Positions 3,600 to 23,110 of a stretch of 25,093 bases of DNA are shown here, one piece after another. Source of the stretch: a virus. Location of the stretch: the IMG/VR virus record IMGVR_UViG_3300031622_000019, positions 1-25,093 of that record; one strand, written 5' to 3'. The notes beneath the pieces were generated by a model. That model was not told where the DNA came from. It worked only from the letters and a program-made list of their open reading frames with translations, and did no database searches. How positions within the stretch are numbered: position 1 is the stretch's first letter; each line of letters starts with the position of its first letter. Both the position numbers and the translations under genes were made by a program.

Positions 3600-5645
3600 A
3601 TGATACTAACCCTAGACGTAGAAAACACAACGGTCAAACGGAATGGTAAGTTACACCTTGATCCATTCGAGCCAGAGAATACATTGGTTATGGTAGGTAT
3701 GCTAGATGATCACATGAATGAAACAATTGTAACATTTGATCACGCAGAGCAACAACCTACCACAGATGGGCGGCATATAGTACAAGACGCACTTGATGCT
3801 GCCCATCTACTTGTAGCACACAACGCACCGCATGACCTACTATGGTTGTGGGAGTCAGGCTTCACCTATGACGGTGCGGTGTTCGACACTATGCTTGGTG
3901 AGTACGTACTACAACGTGGACAGAAACAACCACTGTCTCTTGAGGCATGTGCAGAACGATATGAATTGGACACAAAGAAACAAGACACAATGAAGGAGTA
4001 CTGGAAGAATGGATATTCAACACGGGATATTCCTCATGCTGAATTGGCAGAGTATCTATCCCACGACTTACATGCTACTCAGCAATTGTATAATGTTTTG
4101 CAGACATCATACGAGGAATGCAAGTCACTGATACCAACGATACAGTTGACCAATCAACTATGTATACACTTAGCACGTATCTATCAGCGTGGGTTTCAAG
4201 TAGACATGGATGCATTGATGGAGGTACGTGTTGAGTTCGAGCAAGAACGTAACGTACTTATGATTGCACTAGAAGAACAGGCACGTGACCTGATGGGTGA
4301 CAGACCTATCAACCTCAACAGCCCAGAGCAATTGTCATGGGTTATCTATAGCCGTAAGCCCCACGATAAGAAGTTGTGGGCAGACTTGTTCGATGAACGT
4401 ATGCCAGACACAGAGTACAGACGTAACGTCAAGGCGTACAGCGAGAAGTTATACAAGCAGAAGGCACACCAATGCCGCACATGTAATGGCAGTGGTCAGG
4501 TGTGGAAAGAGAAAAAGGATGGGACACCATATGCTAGAAGTAATAAATGTAATAATTGCACTGGTTCAGGATATACTTTTAGTGACGTTCATAATGACGC
4601 TGCTGGGTTAAAATTCATGCCACCTAACTCTAAGTGGATCAGTGCCAATGGTTTCGGTACAGGTAAAGAGAACCTTGTATTCCTTGAAGGCATTGCACGA
4701 TCTAAGGGTATGAAGGTAGCTGAGACATTCCTACAGAATGTACGTAGGTTGTCGGCAGTAGAGACATACCTTAGCAGCTTCGTAGAGGGCATAGCAACGC
4801 ACGTTAAGACTGACGGTAGGCTACATGTACGGTTACTGCAACACCGCACTGGTACAGGCCGCTTGTCGGGTGCCGACCCCAACATGCAGAACATGCCACG
4901 TGGTGGTACGTTCCCTGTTAAGAAGGTGTTCATCTCTCGTTGGCACGGTGGTAAAATCATGGAGGCTGACTTTGCCCAGCTAGAATTTCGTGTCGCTGCA
5001 TTTCTATCGCAAGACATGACAGCCATTGACGAGGTGACTACAGGATTTGATGTACATGCGTACACTGCAAAGGTTATATCCGATGCGGGTCAGCCCACGT
5101 CACGTCAAGAGGCTAAGCCACACACATTCGCCCCGTTGTATGGAGCCAGTGGGTTTGGTAGGTCAGAGGCGGAAGCTGCGTACTACCAACAGTTTACTAA
5201 GAAGTACTCAGGAATTGCCAAGTGGCATGCAGAACTAGCCAAAGAGGCGTTGAGTACCAGCAAGATCACTACACCATCTGGGCGTGAGTTCTCATTCCCT
5301 GATGTACAAAGACGAAGGTTCGGGGGTGTGACATTTTTCACACAGATAAAGAATTATCCTGTCCAATCGTTCGCAACGGCTGACATTGTACCCATATCTC
5401 TGATATACATTGATAAGCTACTGACAGCAAACAAGCTACGCAGTTGTGTAGTAAACACTGTACATGATTCACTTGTGATTGATGTACATCCAGATGAAGA
5501 GGATAAAGTATTACAGATTATCAAGGCAGCTAACGACAGGCTCATACCTATCATCAATAAGAAGTGGAGTTTAGATTTCAATATCCCCCTACTATTAGAG
5601 GCAAAGATTGGTCCTAACTGGCTTGACACAAAAGACGTAGCATGA
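3600..5645 (+). CDS. Family A DNA polymerase with 3'-5' exonuclease and DnaJ-type zinc insertion
   Basis: A 681-residue replicative polymerase of the T7 type, without a 5'-3' exonuclease. Exo I is D6xE8, Exo II is AHNAPHD (N75, D79) and Exo III is YLSHD (Y152, D156), so proofreading should be intact. The polymerase core has motif A at D457-FAQLEFR, motif B with R502, K506, F510, Y514 and G515 in normal spacing, and motif C with H622-D623. Between exonuclease and palm lie two CxxCxGxG motifs (C292/C295 and C317/C320), as in the zinc domain of DnaJ. A polymerase with a partial DnaJ domain is the known hallmark of SAR116 phage HMO-2011. The RNA around residues 304-340 is visibly richer in A/T codons than its surroundings. 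Confidence 0.96.
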   Translation: MILTLDVENTTVKRNGKLHLDPFEPENTLVMVGMLDDHMNETIVTFDHAEQQPTTDGRHIVQDALDAAHLLVAHNAPHDLLWLWESGFTYDGAVFDTMLGEYVLQRGQKQPLSLEACAERYELDTKKQDTMKEYWKNGYSTRDIPHAELAEYLSHDLHATQQLYNVLQTSYEECKSLIPTIQLTNQLCIHLARIYQRGFQVDMDALMEVRVEFEQERNVLMIALEEQARDLMGDRPINLNSPEQLSWVIYSRKPHDKKLWADLFDERMPDTEYRRNVKAYSEKLYKQKAHQCRTCNGSGQVWKEKKDGTPYARSNKCNNCTGSGYTFSDVHNDAAGLKFMPPNSKWISANGFGTGKENLVFLEGIARSKGMKVAETFLQNVRRLSAVETYLSSFVEGIATHVKTDGRLHVRLLQHRTGTGRLSGADPNMQNMPRGGTFPVKKVFISRWHGGKIMEADFAQLEFRVAAFLSQDMTAIDEVTTGFDVHAYTAKVISDAGQPTSRQEAKPHTFAPLYGASGFGRSEAEAAYYQQFTKKYSGIAKWHAELAKEALSTSKITTPSGREFSFPDVQRRRFGGVTFFTQIKNYPVQSFATADIVPISLIYIDKLLTANKLRSCVVNTVHDSLVIDVHPDEEDKVLQIIKAANDRLIPIINKKWSLDFNIPLLLEAKIGPNWLDTKDVA

Positions 5646-12020: not shown

Positions 12021-12054
12021 AAAAAAGAGGGGGCTGTTAAGGCCCCCTTTTCTT
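12021..12054. terminator. Bidirectional Rho-independent terminator between converging blocks
   Basis: GGGGGC at 12029-12034 pairs with GCCCCC at 12042-12047 around a seven-base loop, flanked by an A-tract (12021-12026) on the left and TTTTCTT on the right. It can therefore terminate transcription in both directions, stopping the plus-strand block after mazG and the minus-strand structural block. Its right edge reaches the minus-strand stop codon (12053-12055). Confidence 0.9.
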
Positions 12055-15000
12055 ATTGACTAAAGGATTCTCTGTATCCTTCAGCTATTTTTATTAAAAC
12101 GTTCAAGTCACCTTCATCCATAGGGTCGGGTGATTTACCGTATCTATCTACAAAATCTGTAGTAGCTAACCTACGATAGTCTGGCGCTACTCTACGATAC
12201 TTAGTCATTGCTCTAGCATAGGCATCACCTTGTGCAATTGCACCGTCACGTATCTTAGTTTTAAACTTACGTAGTTGAGCAGACACAAGTGGGCGTAGCT
12301 TATTGGTAACGAACTCTTCTTCAGTAAATGTTTCTTTTACTTTATCTGACGCACTGCGATACTCACTACGCAATCGGACCTCTTGATCCTGTGCAACATC
12401 AACCAGAGTAGGCATGAAACCATTGACCATACTCTGTTCAAAGCGTTTGATACTTGGTACTTTACTACGGCTACCAAAGTCTCTCCAATTAAAGCCTAGT
12501 CGTTTAAGGTACTCACCTTCTTCGTCTGGCTTATTCGTAATGGTAAGACCACCAAACTTCATCCAAGGGTACAAACGTTCCTTACCTTCAGAGTAGAATG
12601 GATACTCCTGACGTGGTGCAGCGGCATCTTCTTCTGGTGACACACCAATACCACGCTGCTTGAGACTACGTGTAACTTCTTTACCTAGTGTACCAGTGAA
12701 GCTAAGGGTAGGGTCAGTGGATACGTCCTTGAACTCTGAGCCACGTACACCTGTTGCACGTTCAGCATCAATGATCTGACCCAAGGGTACAGCCCATGTA
12801 CCTAACCAGTTACCTAGCGTTCTGCCTACGGCACGTCCCGCTGCCTCACCCGAAGTCAAGTCAGTAGCGTCTGCCATCTGTGCGATCTCTTCTATAACAG
12901 AGTTACCTACACCTGTACGGAAGTTACTGCCTGTGAACAGTTCAACAAACTCTTGCATGTCAAACCGTTCTTCAAATATACCAGCAATCATACGTTTAAC
13001 CATCTCACCAAGGTACAAGAATTGAGCCATAGGATATACAGCGGTAGTATCCATCTGTGCATCTTCACCTACAGCTATTTGTTCAAAGTCTGCTGGGGCA
13101 TCATCTGCACTACGAATGTAGTAAGCTGCACCTACTGCAGCCATACCCATCATGTTACGTGTGATACGTTGTCTGTCCTTGGAGGTAAGTGGGCCACCAC
13201 CTACCCGTCCACCAGTTACTAAGCTAGACATCTTACGTGTGAGTGGTATAGATGCACCACCTGCGTACTGACCCATAAGCTCCATGCTGTTGAACATAAA
13301 CCGTGGAAACGGTATCGCTACAGTTAAGCCATTGCGTACAATAAACTGGGACACACTGCGGAATACAGGTATCTCAGGTTGCTTAGCGTATGTAACGTCA
13401 AGGGCTTTAGTGACAGCCTCATCTACAAGTGCAGTAAAACTTGGCGCACCCTTCGGTCTAACGGAAGATGCATCATTCATTAAGTCTTTTAACTTGCCAG
13501 CGTTTAGCGTATCAATCAAGTCTATCTTATACTCCCGGCGAACAAGACGTTCAAGCTCACCAAAGTATTGACCACGGCGTATCAAGTATTCCTGCCAACG
13601 GTTAGGCGTATTAAGAAAGCTAACTGCATCCTCTGCTTCAGACAGTATCTTATCTACTGCACCACCACCGCCTCTACCAGTGAGTGCCTGTATCTCATTG
13701 ATGTTGTTATACATTGCGTCAAGTTGTTTAGCCATTTCTGGTTGTTCTAGTATTAAATCACCGTAACCTTCAGCTAAGTCAGGACGAGAGAACATGTACC
13801 GCATGTTAGCGAAACTATCTGACCAGTTCTCACGGGAGAATAGTCGCTTAGTACCCGCCATGATACCTGCCTCTGCAGCTACGTATATAGCGTCATCCAT
13901 TACGTTGCCTAAGCTTTCCATAGGAGCACGTATTCCACCTGACATCATGTTACGAGATGCCGTAGCAATCTGTGACACAAGGCCACCCCTACGTACATTC
14001 TCTATACGCATGACAAACTTACGGAACTCACCAGCATCTCTTGCTGCACGTTTTGCTGCGTCTGCCTCTGCTACGCTCTTAGGTTTTATTCTATTTATTT
14101 GTGATAGCTTATTAAGAACCTTACCAGCCTGTGACCCAGAACCTACTACAGTTAATACGTAGTCTTCAAAGGATAGGCCGTAGCCATTCAACTCATCCAA
14201 CAAGTCTTGCTCTGGCACAAGCTTTTTGTTTACTGTCAACTCAAACAAGTTGTCAATTACAGTTTTACTTGAGTCCCAATCGTCAGGAAACCTAGCCTTG
14301 TAATCAGATGCGAGTGCTACAATACCATTAAACTTTTCAGGCTTTAGTATGGGTGACGTAATCATGTCGTCACCTAAGTCCAAGTCAAACAAAGCACCAT
14401 CACGTTCTGTAATTTCTTCAGCAGTATCAAGGCCAGCCTGACGTGACAGGTCTGTGTCTATCTCTAGGTTGTCACCCTTCTGTACAGATATAGTCTTACC
14501 CGTAGCATTCTCAAACTCTAGGATAAGATCATCTGCAATGTCACGGTTCTTTGCCGCTACATCTGCAGCACGTGCCTGTGCCTCATCAATGTTAAGCATG
14601 GTTGCAAGTCTTGCACCACCGGGATTGTTACGTTGTGCCTGTGCTGTAGCCTTAGCTTCACGTATTACTTGACGGGATAATCCATTAGCGGAAACTTTAG
14701 CACCTGTAGACACGGCAGTATTAATCGCACCTTGGATGTTACCAATGGCAGGTACTGTCTCTAGGAACTCACCTGCTGCACCTGCGCCATCGGCAATAAA
14801 GTTAGCAAGCTCTGATGGATCATCTATTTTGTATCTACCAAGTGTCACTGCACTTGCAAGTGTTTCAAATGCAGATGGACTTAAATCATTTAAACTAGAA
14901 AAGGCGGATTCCATACCGTCAGTTGTTATAGCCCCAGCCTTTTGGAAGAAGTTACCCATGCCAAGCAACCAACTTGTAGGAAGCGCAGACATTGCTACGT

Positions 15001-15427
15001 CCATGAAGTTAGCGTCACGCATACCGTTACCAGACGCAATAGATTCAGATATAGTAGCCTCAAACTCTTCACGTTCTGTGTCGCTTAGTGTAGCCATGTA
15101 CTCATCCATCTGGGTAATGCCATCCTTGACATCCGCTAGACGCTCACCTGCTTCATACTCGTACACAGGCTCTACATAGGTATCGTTAGGATCATCGGCA
15201 ACTGGAACCATCCAATCCGTGTCACCTAACTCTTGAGGTGGGGCAACTAAGTCTGCGTCTTCATTTGGTTTTACGGACGGTTCCTCTGTGTAGGAGTTTA
15301 AAAAGTTAAGCACACTCTCACTATCAGCGGAAGGTGCTGTTTGCTCTGGTTGAGCAGTCGTTTTCTGTTCTTCCTCTTCAGGGTTATACCCACTAAGAAA
15401 GTCTAGTACACTTGCTTTGTCAGCCAT
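12053..15427 (-). CDS. Large virion protein, candidate internal/ejection protein (1124 aa)
   Basis: The last gene of the structural block and, at 1124 residues, its longest complete one. The first 80 residues are acidic, disordered-looking and contain two copies of a SVLxFLxxY motif (6-14 and 38-46). Long helical regions follow. Around residues 690-725 (FIVRNGLTVAIPFPRFMF...) and 755-770 (MMGMAAVGAAYYI) are segments that could meet a membrane. The size, the place at the end of the operon and the composition resemble T7 gp16-type ejection proteins, but I find no lysozyme or transglycosylase motif. A large polyvalent protein is an alternative. Function is inferred from position. Confidence 0.6.
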   Translation of the reverse strand: MADKASVLDFLSGYNPEEEEQKTTAQPEQTAPSADSESVLNFLNSYTEEPSVKPNEDADLVAPPQELGDTDWMVPVADDPNDTYVEPVYEYEAGERLADVKDGITQMDEYMATLSDTEREEFEATISESIASGNGMRDANFMDVAMSALPTSWLLGMGNFFQKAGAITTDGMESAFSSLNDLSPSAFETLASAVTLGRYKIDDPSELANFIADGAGAAGEFLETVPAIGNIQGAINTAVSTGAKVSANGLSRQVIREAKATAQAQRNNPGGARLATMLNIDEAQARAADVAAKNRDIADDLILEFENATGKTISVQKGDNLEIDTDLSRQAGLDTAEEITERDGALFDLDLGDDMITSPILKPEKFNGIVALASDYKARFPDDWDSSKTVIDNLFELTVNKKLVPEQDLLDELNGYGLSFEDYVLTVVGSGSQAGKVLNKLSQINRIKPKSVAEADAAKRAARDAGEFRKFVMRIENVRRGGLVSQIATASRNMMSGGIRAPMESLGNVMDDAIYVAAEAGIMAGTKRLFSRENWSDSFANMRYMFSRPDLAEGYGDLILEQPEMAKQLDAMYNNINEIQALTGRGGGGAVDKILSEAEDAVSFLNTPNRWQEYLIRRGQYFGELERLVRREYKIDLIDTLNAGKLKDLMNDASSVRPKGAPSFTALVDEAVTKALDVTYAKQPEIPVFRSVSQFIVRNGLTVAIPFPRFMFNSMELMGQYAGGASIPLTRKMSSLVTGGRVGGGPLTSKDRQRITRNMMGMAAVGAAYYIRSADDAPADFEQIAVGEDAQMDTTAVYPMAQFLYLGEMVKRMIAGIFEERFDMQEFVELFTGSNFRTGVGNSVIEEIAQMADATDLTSGEAAGRAVGRTLGNWLGTWAVPLGQIIDAERATGVRGSEFKDVSTDPTLSFTGTLGKEVTRSLKQRGIGVSPEEDAAAPRQEYPFYSEGKERLYPWMKFGGLTITNKPDEEGEYLKRLGFNWRDFGSRSKVPSIKRFEQSMVNGFMPTLVDVAQDQEVRLRSEYRSASDKVKETFTEEEFVTNKLRPLVSAQLRKFKTKIRDGAIAQGDAYARAMTKYRRVAPDYRRLATTDFVDRYGKSPDPMDEGDLNVLIKIAEGYRESFSQ

Positions 15428-17316: not shown

Positions 17317-19563
17317 TCAAAACAGTCCGACAATAGCGCCAAGACCTTTACCAAGTAGTGTATTACCACCAATAGGAGATGTAAACATATTTGCCATAAG
17401 TCCACCCCAAGCGGCAGATGTATTATAGTCATTCTTTTCAGCGGCAATATCTGCATTAGCGTCAAGTGAAAGTTTCTGCATCGCTAACCCAACAATACGA
17501 CCACGTTCATTCTCTGCACTGTTCCATGCCCACTCCATACTGTCTTGGTAGTAGGACCACAAGTCATTGTAGGCAGTGTTAGATATACCTAGTACGGATG
17601 CGGCATTGATTTCGTTAGCACGATTTATGGATGCAGTATCTGCAGTAGCTACTTGTCTACGCCAGTTAGCATTATTCTGGTCAATTACCAATCGGTTCTG
17701 TGCATTAAACTGATCACGTTGGTTCATCATCTCAGATGCAAACCTATCCTGTGCATTAGTCTGCCCTGCATTAAATTGGTTCTGGGCATTTGTCTGTGAC
17801 GCATTGAACTGTGATGCAGATGTAGACAGGTTAGCAAAGAACTGATCTGTTTGGTTCTGACTGGATGCATTAAACTGTGCAGCGGCATTGGCTGCAGCTT
17901 GATCCGTAAACAAAGACTGTATCTGTTGCTGGGATTTAAACATGCTAGTCTGTTGTTGGTTATTTAAGTTAGCCATGTCCATCTGCAAGAATGATTGAGC
18001 ATTCATAACGGCAGCTTGTTGACGGTTGTTAAGGTTAGCCATATCCATGTTGGATAGCGCAGCTGCCTCTGCCATTGTCAATGCCTGACGGTTAGATAGG
18101 TTAGCCATGTTCATTGTGTTAGCGTTACGACTGTTCTCTAAAGCTACTTGTTGCTCTGCAGTAAAGTTCATATTAGCTACATCACTAATCTTACTTGCAT
18201 TCATTACACGAGATTGGAAGGCTTGATCAAACTCTTGACCCATGAATGTGGCACGTTGTTGTGCGGCAAGCATGGCACGTTGCTGACGGTTAGATAGGTT
18301 CTGACCCTCGAACTGTGCAAACACTTGGGCATCTGCAGACGCAATGGGTAGTGAGGCTTCCATAGCGGCCTGTATAACGGCCTGTCCTGCCATAGATGAT
18401 GCACCCAAGCCACGAGCAGCCATCGTTGCTGTAGCGGTACGCATTGCACCAGCAGCCCATGCAGGTGTAGCACCACCCTCAAACTCTTGCATCAATGTTT
18501 CAAGCTGGCCCTTTACGGTAGCTTGCTTAGTAGGTGTGGCAGTAGCTGCCTGAATTTCTTCTGTGAATGTAGCAGCAGTCTGTGCGTTAGCTACACCACT
18601 GACAAGTTCACCATCTTCAATCTTACGTTGTACAGGGTTCTCCATAAGAATGGCTTGACCCTGCGCTGCATCAAGTTCACTTACACTTGTAGCTGTAGCT
18701 ATCTGTGCGTCAACGATTGCCTTAGTATCTACTTCACCTTGTGCCGCAGTAGTCTGTGCTATTACCTCGCCTACTTTACTTGCGGATGTTTCAGCAGTCA
18801 TAAGGTTAGCGTCAGTCTTAGTAGGTTCATCGGCAGTTGCTGTAGTGGCAGTAGTTATAGGAGTATTAATGTCACCAGTTACTTGTCCACTACGAGGGTC
18901 AACTATCTGATCTGCAGTTACGTTAGTACCTACAGGTTGTACAGTTGCACCAGCTACAAGGGAAGGATTAATTGCACGATTAGCTTGCAGTTCGGAGATT
19001 GACTCACCTTCGTAAGCAGGTGCTTGAGGTGTTCCTGTTGTCCTTGGGTCAATACTTGCGCTTTCCTGTATGCTCATATAGGGCACAGGAGCTTGATAAC
19101 CAGCGTTGGGATTAAAATTTGCACCCCCCTGTAAGGCACCTGTGTTACCCGTTCTATTTAAATAGTCTTCATAAATTTTATCTTGATCACCACCAATACT
19201 ACCGGAACCTACCTGCCCAAAGTAAGGACTAGAATACATGTCCATAGTACCTACACCGCTACCTGCTTCTTGATACTTTTTAAATTCAGGAGAGTCGTAA
19301 AATCCTTGGTCAATATTTTCTTGTTTAGTATACTGTCGTTCGGGCATGGTAATGCCACCTACAGCATAGTTACCACGTTTAACCATGCCACCCCTAGCCA
19401 TCTCAACAGCCTTCTCTTGGTACGTGTTCATCTGATTCATTTTATCAGGATTATCTTCAAGGTAGCTATTGAACCCACCCATATCTCCTTGATACCCTAA
19501 AGAACCAGCAATACGCTGCATAGCTTCAGGTCTGAATCCTTTAAACTGTGGGTTAAACTGCAT
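17317..19563 (-). CDS. Large virion protein with 11-residue (hendecad) repeats (748 aa)
   Basis: The first 150 residues are Gly/Tyr/Asn-rich and include ARGGMVKRGNYAVGG, a glycine-basic patch I recall from marine phage virion proteins. Residues of about 160-420 are Ala/Thr-rich and low in complexity. From 422 to about 640 the chain is an unbroken run of 11-residue repeats (see the repeat entry), suited to a long helical rod or tube. After that come an aromatic helix (WSYYQDSMEWAWN) and a Gly/hydrophobic end (GKGLGAIVGLF) that could enter a membrane. It is the first gene after the promoter at 19596-19624. A fibrous internal protein or T7 gp14/gp15-like ejection component is my best guess. Confidence 0.62.
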   Translation of the reverse strand: MQFNPQFKGFRPEAMQRIAGSLGYQGDMGGFNSYLEDNPDKMNQMNTYQEKAVEMARGGMVKRGNYAVGGITMPERQYTKQENIDQGFYDSPEFKKYQEAGSGVGTMDMYSSPYFGQVGSGSIGGDQDKIYEDYLNRTGNTGALQGGANFNPNAGYQAPVPYMSIQESASIDPRTTGTPQAPAYEGESISELQANRAINPSLVAGATVQPVGTNVTADQIVDPRSGQVTGDINTPITTATTATADEPTKTDANLMTAETSASKVGEVIAQTTAAQGEVDTKAIVDAQIATATSVSELDAAQGQAILMENPVQRKIEDGELVSGVANAQTAATFTEEIQAATATPTKQATVKGQLETLMQEFEGGATPAWAAGAMRTATATMAARGLGASSMAGQAVIQAAMEASLPIASADAQVFAQFEGQNLSNRQQRAMLAAQQRATFMGQEFDQAFQSRVMNASKISDVANMNFTAEQQVALENSRNANTMNMANLSNRQALTMAEAAALSNMDMANLNNRQQAAVMNAQSFLQMDMANLNNQQQTSMFKSQQQIQSLFTDQAAANAAAQFNASSQNQTDQFFANLSTSASQFNASQTNAQNQFNAGQTNAQDRFASEMMNQRDQFNAQNRLVIDQNNANWRRQVATADTASINRANEINAASVLGISNTAYNDLWSYYQDSMEWAWNSAENERGRIVGLAMQKLSLDANADIAAEKNDYNTSAAWGGLMANMFTSPIGGNTLLGKGLGAIVGLF
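17644..18300 (-). repeat. Hendecad repeat array, residues 422-640 of the 748-aa protein
   Basis: Asparagine recurs in the same register every 11 or 22 residues without a single insertion or deletion: N422, N466, N488, N510, N532, N565, N587, N598, N620 and N631. The first half is best seen as 22-residue units starting MANLxNRQ. The second half is plain 11-residue units of the form QFNAxQTNAQx (at 563, 585, 596 and 618, with degenerate copies at 574 and 607). Eleven-residue periodicity points to an 11/3 coiled coil. About 20 hendecads would give a rod near 30 nm if fully helical. Confidence 0.85.
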
Positions 19564-19632: not shown

Positions 19633-20178
19633 TTAATCTGCTAGTGGGTTATCCAAAGCACGTTGTAACTTTGCCATAAGCCTGTCTTCTAAGTCTTTCA
19701 TGTCTATGTCTTGTGAAGCCCGTAGTCTATCACGTTGGTTCTCAAAGCGTACATCTGCATCATCAATCATTGTACGTACTTTTGTTTCAGTGTCCCGTAG
19801 CTCTGCGCCAACAGTGTCTTCAATAGCTCTTACTGTATCTTCAATACGATCTGTCTGTTGTTCAATACGTAGGATATCATCCTTCAGACCGTTCTTAATA
19901 TCACGAGAGTACTCTACACTTTCCTCTACCTTATCAGAGATACCTGACATCTTAGCGTCCATGATATCCATCTGTTGTTGGTACGCACCAAGGTCTAGTC
20001 CTGCTACTTCTTCAATCTTTTGATACAGTACAAAGCCACCGTACAAACCACCAACTACCGTAGATATGAAAGCAAAGATTGCAAAGATAGATGCGAAGGT
20101 AAACTTAAAACCACCTGCCTTGATCTCACGATCTGCAAGACCATCAATGTTATCTGCAACTTTGGTCAGGTCAGTCAT
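19633..20178 (-). CDS. Membrane-anchored coiled-coil protein, 181 aa
   Basis: One strong transmembrane segment at about residues 25-52 (FKFTFASIFAIFAFISTVVGGLYGGFVLY) is followed by roughly 125 residues of charged coiled coil (EEV, KMSGISDKVEESV, DRIEDTVRAIEDTVGAELRD and so on), ending NPLAD. The short N-terminus has few charges, so topology cannot be fixed by eye. Proteins of this layout are common in marine phages, and I recall them without a function. It is the last gene of a run of envelope-directed proteins. Its start overlaps the preceding stop (TAATG). A spanin-like or holin-like part is possible; a tether in the host inner membrane is equally possible. Confidence 0.72.
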   Translation of the reverse strand: MTDLTKVADNIDGLADREIKAGGFKFTFASIFAIFAFISTVVGGLYGGFVLYQKIEEVAGLDLGAYQQQMDIMDAKMSGISDKVEESVEYSRDIKNGLKDDILRIEQQTDRIEDTVRAIEDTVGAELRDTETKVRTMIDDADVRFENQRDRLRASQDIDMKDLEDRLMAKLQRALDNPLAD

Positions 20179-20612
20179 TAGTTCTCAAATTCCATCTCAG
20201 TATTATTACCTACATCCTGTAGCTGACGTAACTGTTCCAGTTCTGCACGTAACATTTGTATTTCTAGTCTACGGTGCGTCATCTCTACTTGAAACAAGTC
20301 ATCACAGTTTACACGAGTCTTAGGTTTATCCAGAGGTATAACGATACGTGCGTATATGCCTATGTCTTTACCTTTTGCGGTACGGTCATTGATGTTAGTC
20401 ATTACACCAGTTACACCAAACTCTAAGTTAGTTGCACCACCTACCGCATTAGAACAATCTAAGTTACCTGCACGGAATCTATCTGATTGATAGTTCATAG
20501 GTGGGCTTGGTAGTTGTAGTGCAAGAGAACTACTCTCTGCTTTTACAACACCGTAGAAACTCATACACAAAAAGAAGATGCACAGACCAAAAACTATTAT
20601 CTTGGGGATCAT
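20178..20612 (-). CDS. Secreted protein with C-terminal coiled coil, 144 aa
   Basis: I start it at the ATG at 20612, which has GGAGG six bases upstream and overlaps the preceding stop (ATGA); a longer frame to 20639 has no such site. The N-terminus is a clear signal peptide (MIPKIIVFGLCIFFL..., cleaved near VVKA-E). The mature part has a cysteine-containing segment (NLDCSNAVGGATNLEFGVTGVMTN), two strands (GIYARIVIPL) and a second cysteine (VNCDDL), so one disulphide is likely. It ends in a coiled coil (RRLEIQMLRAELEQLRQLQ). This suits a periplasmic or outer-membrane-associated protein. No family recognised. Confidence 0.72.
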   Translation of the reverse strand: MIPKIIVFGLCIFFLCMSFYGVVKAESSSLALQLPSPPMNYQSDRFRAGNLDCSNAVGGATNLEFGVTGVMTNINDRTAKGKDIGIYARIVIPLDKPKTRVNCDDLFQVEMTHRRLEIQMLRAELEQLRQLQDVGNNTEMEFEN

Positions 20613-20995
20613 GGTTTTCCTCCATCTAGCCTCGAACATATACGAGAAGAGACTAGTGTATTAACACCACTTATCTTTTTGACCTTAGATGTTGTACACA
20701 AATATACAGCACGTCCTACATCTATTTTACGTAGATAAACATCAAAGTCTTTGCGCTCTTTATGTTCTATTTTTAGTATGCGATATGTAGTTGAGAATGG
20801 TACGTTAACCCACTCACTATCGAATACTTCTATTTGGTAATACTTAACGTCACTACGTGCATTGAACAGAGACATCTTTGTCTTCACTACCCCGGCAATA
20901 TGTGACGGTCTTAGTTCTGGGTAGGCTGGTGTCATGTCATGTGCAGATAATGCAGATGCCCAGCCAAGTAGTACAAGAGTAGCTTTACTTAGCAA
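20609..20995 (-). CDS. Secreted Ig-fold candidate, pilus-chaperone-like, 128 aa
   Basis: The TTG at 20995 gives a textbook signal peptide (MLSKATLVLLGWASALSA, cleaved before HDM); the longer frame to 21031 adds twelve polar residues and no better site. After cleavage comes MTPAYPELRPS, then strand after strand: KTKMSLFNARSDVKYYQIEVFDSEWVNVPF, RILKIEHKERKDFDVYLRK, RAVYLCTTSK. Alternating strands with an N-R-x-D-V-x-Y-Y-x-I-x-V pattern and a late proline-phenylalanine recall the first Ig domain of PapD-type pilus chaperones. The two late cysteines could form a disulphide. It lies next to the pilin-like gene. The fold assignment is my inference and the weakest link is length: PapD has two domains. 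Confidence 0.55.
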   Translation of the reverse strand: MLSKATLVLLGWASALSAHDMTPAYPELRPSHIAGVVKTKMSLFNARSDVKYYQIEVFDSEWVNVPFSTTYRILKIEHKERKDFDVYLRKIDVGRAVYLCTTSKVKKISGVNTLVSSRICSRLDGGKP

Positions 20996-21473
20996 TGCAC
21001 TCTGCCTGAACGATGGCTGTATATGTACCACCTGTAAAGGGTTTACTTACGCCATAGGAAGCTGTAGAAGCTGTACTAAACCAAGTAGAACCTGCGACAG
21101 TAAGATCAAATACAGTAACGTTATCGTAGGTTACTTTGGCTGTGTCATACGCAGCCATACCTGCGTCAGATGTTTGCGACACAGAGGTTCCACCTGTCCA
21201 TGCCACTGTATCTGTCAGTGTAGGAGACGAAGAGAATGAGTTAGGGTGTGTGATCTTAGCTTCATAGTAGTCTGCGATAGCTACATCGTACCGGATGATA
21301 GGTTCAATACCTCCATCTGCTGCAAGTGTGCTTAGCTTGTCGGCTGTAGGGTTTCCATACACACCACTTGTGTCAGTTTGAATTACACACTTGGCAGATA
21401 CGTTACCTATAATATTTACTTCCGCAAGTACAGGCGTAGCACACATAGATAGAATTAGTATTGGGTATTTCAT
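20985..21473 (-). CDS. Secreted pilin-like protein, 162 aa
   Basis: The ATG at 21473 follows GAGGAT at good spacing, whereas the ATG at 21485 lies inside the preceding stop and has none, so I choose the former. The signal peptide is MKYPILILSMCATPVLA-EVN. The mature protein has one cysteine near its start (NVSAKCVIQTD) and one at the end (AECIAK). In between are many short strands rich in Thr, Ser and Gly (TVAWTGGTSVSQTSD, VTVFDLTVAGSTW). It ends GGTYTAIVQAECIA, like the final strand of fimbrial subunits. This looks like a small secreted Ig- or pilin-type domain. I do not recognise an exact family. Confidence 0.55.
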   Translation of the reverse strand: MKYPILILSMCATPVLAEVNIIGNVSAKCVIQTDTSGVYGNPTADKLSTLAADGGIEPIIRYDVAIADYYEAKITHPNSFSSSPTLTDTVAWTGGTSVSQTSDAGMAAYDTAKVTYDNVTVFDLTVAGSTWFSTASTASYGVSKPFTGGTYTAIVQAECIAK

Positions 21474-21484
21474 AAGTATCCTCA

Positions 21485-22354
21485 TTAGTTATACTGCATC
21501 TGCACCATCTTCTCGTGCAGTAATTGTTGCGCCAGATTATTCCTTAGAGCTTTCTTATTGTCGGGTAAGTTCGCATCGGCAAGGGAATTATTGTCTTGGT
21601 AGTATCCACCATTTATGGTAGAGTTATAATACATAGCTATGTTAGTTTGTAGATTGATCTGGTTTATAATGTCTGCTTGACCTGCAGTTTTCATCATGGT
21701 TAGTGCATTAGCAGAGGCAGTCAAACCCATCTCAAGTCTAGTTTCTTTTTCTTCTTCTTCATCGTCTACTATACGATTACCATCTTCATCGTATTTAAAA
21801 CTACTGTCGTTGTCTAGTGCGTCAGCTACTGTGTCATCTTCTAAAGCGTCATAGACATCTACTTCTACTATAACTGGTACAGGTTTTACGTAACCGGGAC
21901 AGGCAGAGCTAATCTGTGGGTCATAGCACTCATCTATTCTATAACTATATACTACCACAGCGTCCGTTATTTGTCCAGTTCCCTCAACTTCTATTGATCC
22001 GTTACCCCAGTTAGTTGCGGGACTGTTACCTATTGAGAAAGACTTGGTGATTGTGTTGCTTGGTACGCCTGACCAATCGTCTGTCTCTCTGAATGTGTAA
22101 CCACTGCCGTTTGCATTAAGATTACCTACGTGTACCTTCATGGCGTCTTCGGTATTCTTTACGGTAGTGTATCTGTATATCAACCCGTTTATGTCTAGCC
22201 CAGTTACCGAAGGTAGTACTGCACCCATAGACCAGTTTAAACCATTGGCTGCTGCATTGCCTGTTGTACTATAGGTGTATGGCTCAGAATAAGAGTACGA
22301 GGCCAAGGACACCAAGGACAGCACCAATACCAATTGTTGAATTGTCTTGTGCAT
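21485..22354 (-). CDS. Secreted protein of unknown function, 289 aa
   Basis: A signal peptide (MHKTIQQLVLVLSLVSLASYSYS) leads into a beta-rich domain. It has an early tryptophan-glycine segment (GLNWSMGAVLPSVTGLDINGLIYRYTT), a mid-part motif ETDDWSGVPSN, and two cysteines close together (DECYDPQ and SACPGYVKP). A very acidic stretch (EEEEK) and a helical tail then follow. Its first 71 nt overlap the previous gene in another frame, and the overlapped bases encode hydrophobic peptides in both. I recall similar ORFs in other marine phages but no function. It is probably exported to the periplasm or the outer surface. Confidence 0.7.
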   Translation of the reverse strand: MHKTIQQLVLVLSLVSLASYSYSEPYTYSTTGNAAANGLNWSMGAVLPSVTGLDINGLIYRYTTVKNTEDAMKVHVGNLNANGSGYTFRETDDWSGVPSNTITKSFSIGNSPATNWGNGSIEVEGTGQITDAVVVYSYRIDECYDPQISSACPGYVKPVPVIVEVDVYDALEDDTVADALDNDSSFKYDEDGNRIVDDEEEEKETRLEMGLTASANALTMMKTAGQADIINQINLQTNIAMYYNSTINGGYYQDNNSLADANLPDNKKALRNNLAQQLLHEKMVQMQYN

Positions 22355-22844
22355 TTAGTATACCTTTTATAATTCCTTCATCCATCTTAGGTGTAGGGTC
22401 TTCGTTAGCTTCCATCTCCCATGCAGTCTTGGCTGCTTGACCAATCAAACCATCTTTGGGACAGGGAGTACCTGCATCCATCATTGCCTGCCAGACATTT
22501 TTATCCTGACACATAACGGATACTGCAGCTACCTTCATGCCCATGTCGTACATAGTCTTGGCATTCTTTAGTCGAAGGCAGTTGTCTTCTGTATATACTT
22601 TACCTACTGAGATACCAAGTATCTGAGTTTGTACTGCACCTGCTACACCTATGGTGCAGAGATCACCATTACCAGAACTAATCTGTGGTGATATAGCTGA
22701 CGGTGGTGGGCTACGAACCGTGGTATCCATGTTACCACTTGATGTTACTGTACTGGTTGAGTCCGTATAGATAGTATCATCTACTTGTGCATAGACCTCA
22801 GAGCCTATTAAGATACATACTAGTAGTGTTAAATAACGAATCAC
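22284..22844 (-). CDS. Secreted protein with C-terminal membrane tail, 186 aa
   Basis: Signal peptide MIRYLTLLVCILIGSEVYA, cleaved before QVDD. A Ser/Thr-rich linker then leads to a compact domain with four cysteines (GDLCTIG, EDNCLRLKNAKTMYD, SVMCQDKNVW, GTPCPKDG), which suggests two disulphides. The chain ends with a hydrophobic segment (IGIGAVLGVLGLVLLF) with no charges after it. A C-terminal anchor with the domain in the periplasm is the simplest reading. I recall this cysteine pattern in marine phage proteins of unknown function. The start overlaps the preceding stop by four bases (ATGA). Confidence 0.7.
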   Translation of the reverse strand: MIRYLTLLVCILIGSEVYAQVDDTIYTDSTSTVTSSGNMDTTVRSPPPSAISPQISSGNGDLCTIGVAGAVQTQILGISVGKVYTEDNCLRLKNAKTMYDMGMKVAAVSVMCQDKNVWQAMMDAGTPCPKDGLIGQAAKTAWEMEANEDPTPKMDEGIIKGILNAQDNSTIGIGAVLGVLGLVLLF

Positions 22845-23110
22845 TTTTCAGCCTTTTCTCTCATTGCGTCCACTGCATCTCGAATAGCTTTTATGTTCTC
22901 ATCAATACGCCCAAGCATTACTGCCTGTAGCTGTGCAGTCTTCTCTACTTCATTGATCCTTATCTCATGCCGTGCAATCTCACGGGCGTTAGTCTCAACG
23001 GTAGCGTCGAGAGTTGACATATACCAAACCAGCCCTACTGTTTGCACAGCAATGGCTAGGATGAATGTAGCGGGTACAGACTTAGACATATGCCAACTCT
23101 CTTGCTTCAT
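22841..23110 (-). CDS. Single-pass membrane protein with coiled coil, 89 aa
   Basis: One hydrophobic segment (residues 12-31, PATFILAIAVQTVGLVWYMS) precedes an amphipathic coiled coil (ATVETNAREIARHEIRINEVEKT...) with a basic end (AMREKAEK). The start is the ATG at 23110, which overlaps the preceding stop (TAATG); an ATG at 23089 that yields MSKS is a fair alternative. Such short TM-plus-coil proteins are often class III holins, spanins or tethering proteins, and this phage's lysis genes are otherwise not in view. No stronger evidence supports holin. It opens the run of envelope-directed genes. Confidence 0.68.
   Translation of the reverse strand: MKQESWHMSKSVPATFILAIAVQTVGLVWYMSTLDATVETNAREIARHEIRINEVEKTAQLQAVMLGRIDENIKAIRDAVDAMREKAEK

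Follow-up and report, generated by a model that had tools for sequence, protein, structure and literature searches.

A conserved six-gene set in marine phages, with exported-looking products and a predicted fimbrial-chaperone fold, usually located beside lysis genes

What use would a phage have for a run of genes whose products look bound for the envelope of its host? The question is raised by IMG/VR virus record IMGVR_UViG_3300031622_000019, analysed here as one window of 25,093 bases that is the whole of the record and probably a fragment of a genome. Seven open reading frames (ORFs) lie one after another on its minus strand, overlapping or nearly so. A preliminary description of the DNA had called them a seven-gene envelope cassette, and all seven consecutive ORFs were recovered (lengths in amino acids, aa):

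A, 22841..23110, minus strand: 89 aa, N-terminal membrane segment and coiled coil
B, 22284..22844, minus strand: 186 aa, GTG start, signal-like N-terminus, domain with Cys (phrog_20531, unknown function), hydrophobic tail at the C-terminus
C, 21485..22354, minus strand: 289 aa, signal-like N-terminus, seemingly beta-rich N-terminal part, acidic linker, ~75 conserved residues at the C-terminus
D, 20985..21473, minus strand: 162 aa, signal-like N-terminus, immunoglobulin-like (Ig-like) beta sandwich in the model; starts possible at 21485 or 21473
E, 20609..20995, minus strand: 128 aa, TTG start, signal-like N-terminus (borderline), single PapD-like domain in the model
F, 20178..20612, minus strand: 144 aa, signal-like N-terminus, short conserved two-Cys domain, C-terminal coiled coil (phrog_37374)
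G, 19633..20178, minus strand: 181 aa, N-terminal membrane anchor and coiled coil, C-terminal NPL motif; topology like that of an inner-membrane spanin (i-spanin)

The answer we prefer is that six of these genes, B to G (22844 to 19633), are a phage-specific operon whose products would be exported to the host envelope and would aid lysis and the release of progeny. We hold it tentatively, at a probability of roughly 0.42. As observed, the cassette looks exported, is co-inherited, is known only from phage-type sequence, and usually sits by lysis genes.

Export was judged across the 34 genes of the window by a crude rule combining simple hydropathy, charge, and the -3/-1 rule. Five N-termini were called signal-like (A, B, C, D, and F), and none of the 27 genes outside the seven-gene block passed. 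The chance of five random calls all falling in a block of seven among 34 genes is about 7.5e-5 (21/278256), a figure for which the block had been fixed beforehand by the preliminary description but in which the genes are not independent. The pass of A is due to its membrane segment. E lies just under the cut-off (9-residue hydropathy of 1.91 against 2.0); its N-terminus, a predicted helix ending at a conserved A-H, is signal-like but borderline by this rule. Of the five Sec-exported proteins first proposed, B to F, four are therefore called by hydropathy and E stands at the edge. The membrane segment and coiled coil proposed for both A and G were upheld, the segments by hydropathy (a single one in G, residues 27-45) and the coils by reading the sequence, and the reported lack of a lipobox in A to G was borne out. 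In alignments of relatives the N-termini stay hydrophobic and signal-like by eye; the signal test itself was over-permissive across relatives (G passed too), and its per-family counts were not used.

The relatives come from IMG/VR, where C as query gave 24 loci; for D, E, and F the best 80 were taken out of 190, 221, and 483 (for F, viral-contig stretches that encode a relative), a selection that biases conservation counts towards close relatives. A single order, B-C-D-E-F-G, was observed by profile search across 248 loci, a set that includes repeat-fetched contigs, the window's own copy, and six phage records; shorter versions occurred only at the ends of loci. Exceptions were L026-L031, phage records retrieved for B alone, and L025, in which B-C occurs and C is longer; C is broken into three ORFs in two contigs (L069/L129 and L075). 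After removal of duplicates, 154 distinct D-F sequences remained in 227 loci, and where at least 700 bases were present on both sides all six genes stood in order in 87 of 87 distinct loci. Recurrence in other phages, on which the preliminary description had made its cassette idea depend, is thus established for B to G. Even the junction of B and C is retained: they share 71 nucleotides (22284-22354), which encode B's hydrophobic C-terminal tail and C's signal-like N-terminus in two frames, and the overlap is 71 nucleotides in 120 of 132 distinct loci (the start nearest 71 being taken).

A pattern-based scan of bacterial genomes for D returned five contigs from three metagenome-assembled genomes; three of these contigs (L282, L284, and L286) bear phage-type genes by eye. 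Divergent contigs L282 (D 73% identical) and L285 (54%) keep all six genes in order; the cassettes of L283 (60%), L284 (65%), and L286 stop at the contig end. L285 also carries two extra ORFs of 77 and 138 aa between F and G (4229-4887), the second perhaps transglutaminase-like by eye.

Gene A does not share this constancy. The gene directly upstream of B encodes a membrane segment and a charged remainder in 62 of 116 distinct loci and is some other gene in 49 (in 5 there is none), and the small genes at A's place belong to several membrane-plus-charged types. The weak Rz-like PHROG match of A itself (3.8e-4) probably reflects coiled-coil composition. The conserved unit is B to G, with A interchangeable; the proposed seven-gene cassette stands for six of its members. 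Upstream of the cassette, L014 (481-2884) and L019 (3219-5547) carry genes that we take to be glycosyltransferase- and FkbM-methyltransferase-like, the first of which, in its L014 copy, has a short internal duplication.

On the other side of the cassette, what follows G was classed over a span of 4 kb in 100 distinct loci that reach at least 2.5 kb past it. In 84 of them a gene H (EF-hand and membrane segments, labelled by eye), a holin-type gene, and an endolysin gene follow, and 3 more show the same without H. One holin type has a Pfam match, PF11351, above cut-off in 8 of 20 contigs; the remaining holin labels come from position and membrane segments (phrog_6637 and phrog_2524, unknown function). 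PHROG confirms one endolysin type (4e-74 for one representative), and the other was labelled by eye. Together, the signal-like N-termini and this lysis-gene neighbourhood in most relatives support the proposal that the proteins act in the host envelope, and among the three roles first offered for them (lysis, superinfection exclusion, or a surface structure) the neighbourhood favours lysis.

The window itself is arranged otherwise. Three small genes separate its cassette from a preceding tail-fibre gene, which has a Peptidase_S74 domain, and virion-type genes are near. Elsewhere in the window PHROG identified a DnaB-type helicase, PolA, and ribonucleotide reductase, and ThyX and MazG were labelled by eye; this content and order suggest what we take to be an HMO-2011-like podovirus. 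Such surroundings bring up the idea that the products are virion-associated proteins with an unusual export or processing, for instance injection proteins that cross the periplasm. The window genes do lie inside a block of virion-type genes. By eye, 17317-19563 and 12053-15427 resemble genes for internal virion proteins, though none of the five genes there has a PHROG match. Virions are assembled in the cytoplasm, however, the hydrophobic N-termini persist in aligned relatives, and most relatives carry the genes in a lysis neighbourhood; we assign this idea very little likelihood.

The cassette joins two modules. One, B with a G-type protein, turns up without D-E-F in pelagiphages and roseophages. 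B matches 13 phage records, mainly of pelagiphages and roseophages, and no Vibrio phage. In 9 of 11 fetched records (L026-L031, L250, L253, and L254) B is followed by a gene at the position of C and, either next to that or a few genes further, by a small anchor and coiled-coil protein ending in NPL; no such protein was seen in L252, and L251 was judged by annotation only. Kinship to C was found by tblastn in L025 (49% across 75 C-terminal residues of its longer C), that of HTVC115P was seen by eye, and the genes of the remaining phages were assigned by position. Kinship to G by profile was found for HTVC115P, the others being assigned by topology, position, and motif. The motif is specific to G-type proteins: every distinct G protein (100 of 100) has it in the last eight residues, as against 4 of 2212 other mechanically called ORFs (at least 100 aa), and those four are the G-type genes of L027, L028, L029, and L031. 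Given this recurrence and the specificity of NPL, B-C-G was taken as the core, to which D-E-F is probably an addition, the core being the older. In isolates HTVC033P and HTVC023P and in one assembled genome, B lies at most four genes from a gene annotated as lysozyme or peptidase. Two genes labelled 'lysozyme', CRP-207 gp73 (L031 3292-3873) and CRP-810 gp51 (L250 6369-6791), are G-type by topology and motif, and the labels are likely mis-annotations.

In Vibrio phages, D-E-F recurs in the same order without B, C, and G. Comparison of marine and Vibrio profiles by hhalign gave 96.6% for D (P 5e-10), 97.4% for F (P 2e-11), and a weak 4.7% for E. The E proteins are bridged by phrog_25455, which matches E of L285 at 6e-4, of Vibrio phage K251 at 5e-43, and of the window at 0.02. 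The Vibrio relatives of D, E, and F belong to PHROG 25895, 25455, and 37374 (5e-40, 5e-43, and 6e-49), and window B and F match phrog_20531 (4.9e-16) and phrog_37374 (4.1e-8); all four families are of 'unknown function', and the library links them neither to each other nor to a role. In a search of 50,697 phage records, the window's F gave a single weak match (0.03) and its C, D, E, and G none (at E<=0.01 for C, 0.1 for D and E, and 0.001 for G); the complete cassette was found in no deposited phage among them. With K251 queries, D and E each matched 179 Vibrio phage records, many near-identical, and F matched 191 (180 Vibrio, 6 Klebsiella, 3 Erwinia, 1 Stenotrophomonas, and 1 Raoultella). The expectation that single members would have homologues in marine phages was right but incomplete, as B recurs with a G-type protein in marine phages and D-E-F as a set in Vibrio phages.

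Two side observations concern this module. In Klebsiella phage Eowyn (L342 4598-5848) and an Erwinia phage (L343 4601-5824), F stands beside two exported-looking proteins in what seems by eye to be the order E-F-D; the likeness of these neighbours to E and D was unsupported by hhalign, and they were not counted. Two Vibrio phages encode, after F, a small protein bearing a clear LAISGC lipobox (L339 4242-4427 and L338 5658-5834), and no counterpart was seen in the marine cassette.

Some Vibrio phages place the module near lysis genes as well. In the T5-like pVp-1 and Thalassa, genes for a holin and an M15 endolysin come after D-E-F, separated from it by two small genes (the pVp-1 holin, the one tested, matches PF11031 at 1.6e-46), and in 1.205.O an M15 peptidase is encoded ~2.3 kb past F. 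Directly before D-E-F, K251, pVp-1, K478b, and 1.205.O share a large protein that looks fibre-like by eye:

Large fibre-like gene before D-E-F in the four Vibrio phages scanned (phrog_10818, unknown function): L249 2761-5073; L340 6518-9103; L338 2033-4489; L339 198-3101

If the cassette serves lysis, does it include a spanin? G and A have the topology of an i-spanin (N-terminal membrane segment and coiled coil), by hydropathy and sequence. Six contigs of 48-62 kb were scanned for proteins of 70-250 aa, using mechanical gene calls on pieces cut at 20 kb, and only G and A-type genes were flagged as N-anchored proteins with charged tails. No lipobox was found among the called genes, and four embedded ORFs were implausible by eye; the scan is crude and not exhaustive, the caller having missed G itself in contig G002. 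The comparison with two-component spanins (Rz/Rz1) is therefore partial: G and A share the anchor and coiled coil and, in most relatives, lie near an endolysin gene, but the lipoprotein partner was not found and several exported proteins share the operon.

A number of observations weigh against a role in lysis. An outer-membrane spanin lipoprotein with a lipobox was found neither in the cassette nor among the called genes of the six large contigs, and no cassette member is homologous to a known spanin. In 13 of the 100 distinct loci, those of the window's own phage type, a virion-type gene follows the cassette instead, and G007, a 48-kb HMO-like relative, has the H-holin-endolysin set elsewhere. 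In K251, and by synteny in vB_VhaS-tm, D-E-F lies between the large fibre-like gene and neck genes. The 'lysozyme' labels beside B in CRP-207 and CRP-810 lose their force once their bearers are read as G-type proteins. Finally, a neighbourhood of lysis genes does not by itself establish function.

The main rival explanation is receptor masking or superinfection exclusion, in which an exported complex caps the outer-membrane receptor of the phage and either protects the cell or stops progeny from sticking to debris. The Llp lipoprotein of T5 masks its phage receptor in this manner. A blocker would be expected to travel with its receptor-binding protein, and fibre or fibre-like genes are indeed close by: a tail-fibre gene three small genes away in the window and a large fibre-like gene directly before D-E-F in four Vibrio phages of different genome types, even where the module sits between head and neck genes. 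The marine loci speak differently, as 87 of 100 put the cassette before holin-type and endolysin genes and some relatives have capsid- or portal-like genes upstream (labels by eye; of 7 distinct loci classed, 1 was portal-like and 6 other, from which we draw little). Moreover, A to G lack the lipobox of an Llp-type protein, and six genes are many for a receptor plug. We consider masking possible but somewhat unlikely.

Structure prediction gave a clue to what D and E might be. An AlphaFold2 model of E built from 32 sequences has seven strands and a predicted local distance difference test score (pLDDT) of 84.1. Among 50 PDB matches shown by Foldseek, 47 were fimbrial chaperones or chaperone-subunit complexes (best 3.6e-4), as were all 17 with E<=0.001 (prob 1.00, TM-score on query 0.42-0.55). 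VIA agreed, with chaperones or their complexes in 42 of 50 matches shown (Z 8.0-9.4), MSP domains, which we take to belong to the same PapD-like superfamily, being tied with them within 1 (Z 8.0-8.8). As an internal control, D, another beta sandwich, matched no chaperone chain in the 50 Foldseek rows shown; the complexes among them match through the subunit chain, as judged by length. An invariant Cys pair lies on the last two predicted strands of E in 41 of 41 sequences, presumably as in FGL chaperones. The model, a confident one, thus gives E the fold of a fimbrial chaperone N-terminal domain.

Sequence profiles alone do not prove that relation. PF00345 (PapD_N) had no match in the window at E<=10, and none for E or its Vibrio relative. 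By hhalign, the marine E profile alone gave 0.5% against PapD_N; a union profile of 41 marine, metagenome-assembled, and Vibrio E proteins gave 27.7% against PapD_N domains from genomes (P 6e-4, 66 columns), 2.9-5.2% against E. coli chaperones, and <1% against SCPU and pilin targets. A BFVD fold search of E returned mostly uncharacterised proteins and some Ig-like animal-virus proteins, and no chaperone. Compared with fimbrial chaperones of the FimC, Caf1M, DraB, FaeE, and CsuC type, E would share the PapD-like fold of the N-terminal domain, the Cys pair, and an adjoining gene for an Ig-like partner, D. It differs in having a single domain in 128 aa rather than two Ig-like domains in about 200 mature residues, in lacking a PapD_N match and an accompanying usher gene among the records searched, and in being carried by phages.

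For D the model shows an Ig-like sandwich at lower confidence (pLDDT 73, N-terminus poor); its first and last predicted strands hold two Cys that are invariant in 40 of 40 sequences. Its Foldseek matches included FimG, CsuA/B, CfaE, Gram-positive adhesins, and a cannula protein (best E 0.011), and VIA returned adhesin, integrin, and sortase-pilin sandwiches. A chaperone-like E beside an Ig-like D calls to mind a surface fibre, in which D would polymerise by donor-strand exchange with E's help into a pilus-like filament, periplasmic or leaving the cell. The chaperone matches of E, the FimG and CsuA/B matches of D, and the order of D before E in both marine and Vibrio sets are consistent with it. 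Other observations weigh against it. The usher domain PF00577 was found in 0 of 26 records at E<=1, with a positive E. coli control, although such virus records may not be complete. Gram-positive adhesins, sortase-type pilins, and integrins match D as well as or better than pilins do, and the placement of its Cys is, we believe, unlike that of classical pilins. We regard a fibre as very unlikely.

Searches at the sequence level bear on the same point. Neither PF05229 nor any other fimbrial Pfam family matched D or its Vibrio relative. Marine B-G profiles compared by hhalign with seven chaperones, fifteen pilins, and six ushers of E. coli K-12, and B-F profiles compared with chaperone and SCPU domains from genomes, gave nothing convincing, including no signal to SCPU; nor did profiles of B, C, D, E, and F against sequences of solved structures give anything worth keeping. 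Values of 31% and 54.6% between D and pilins were discounted: they cover the signal peptide and first Cys and fell to 1.7% without the signal peptide. The hhalign test is insensitive, since SCPU and E. coli pilins, a relation we take to be real, scored only 4.6%. As usher candidates, the large proteins that precede D-E-F in Vibrio phages were rejected: they have no signal peptide by eye, no Pfam usher match, and a fibre-like look.

Returning to a role in lysis, the reconstructed scheme would run as follows. The cassette would be expressed late, and its exported products would open or weaken the outer membrane together with the holin and endolysin. In the periplasm E may bind and stabilise D, in the way that a fimbrial chaperone handles a pilin; F may connect D and E through its coiled coil; and G, by its NPL tail, may link B and C with the inner membrane across the cell wall. 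The whole complex would stand in for a spanin. A sharper and broader version, in which many Gram-negative phages carry an usher-less chaperone-subunit system, with E pairing with D by donor strand, F assembling them, and the marine B-C-G frame anchoring a fimbria-like spanin replacement that breaks the outer membrane at lysis, is in our view distinctly unlikely.

A precedent of another type exists in marine phages. PMC9004378 describes phage-encoded CsgGF curli pores in pelagimyophages and methylophage Melnitz, for which its authors propose a role in lysis timing. Those pores, as presented there, likewise belong to a bacterial surface-organelle system; they differ in that no csg homology was found here and that the cassette is of a chaperone/Ig-fold type rather than an outer-membrane pore. 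A curli pore was rejected for A to G, which have no CsgG or CsgF Pfam match at E<=1, in keeping with the earlier remark that no CsgA-like repeats are seen. In open-licence PMC full text we found no paper describing the cassette or a phage PapD-like protein.

If the cassette does serve lysis, it would explain how a group of marine phages in which no recognisable spanin was found may pass the outer membrane, and lytic phage biology would gain the fimbrial chaperone fold. Should it act in exclusion instead, four PHROG families of 'unknown function' would still gain a role from this conserved set of six envelope proteins. The D-E-F part occurs in 179 Vibrio phage records, many near-identical, and its role is testable in cultured phage-host pairs.

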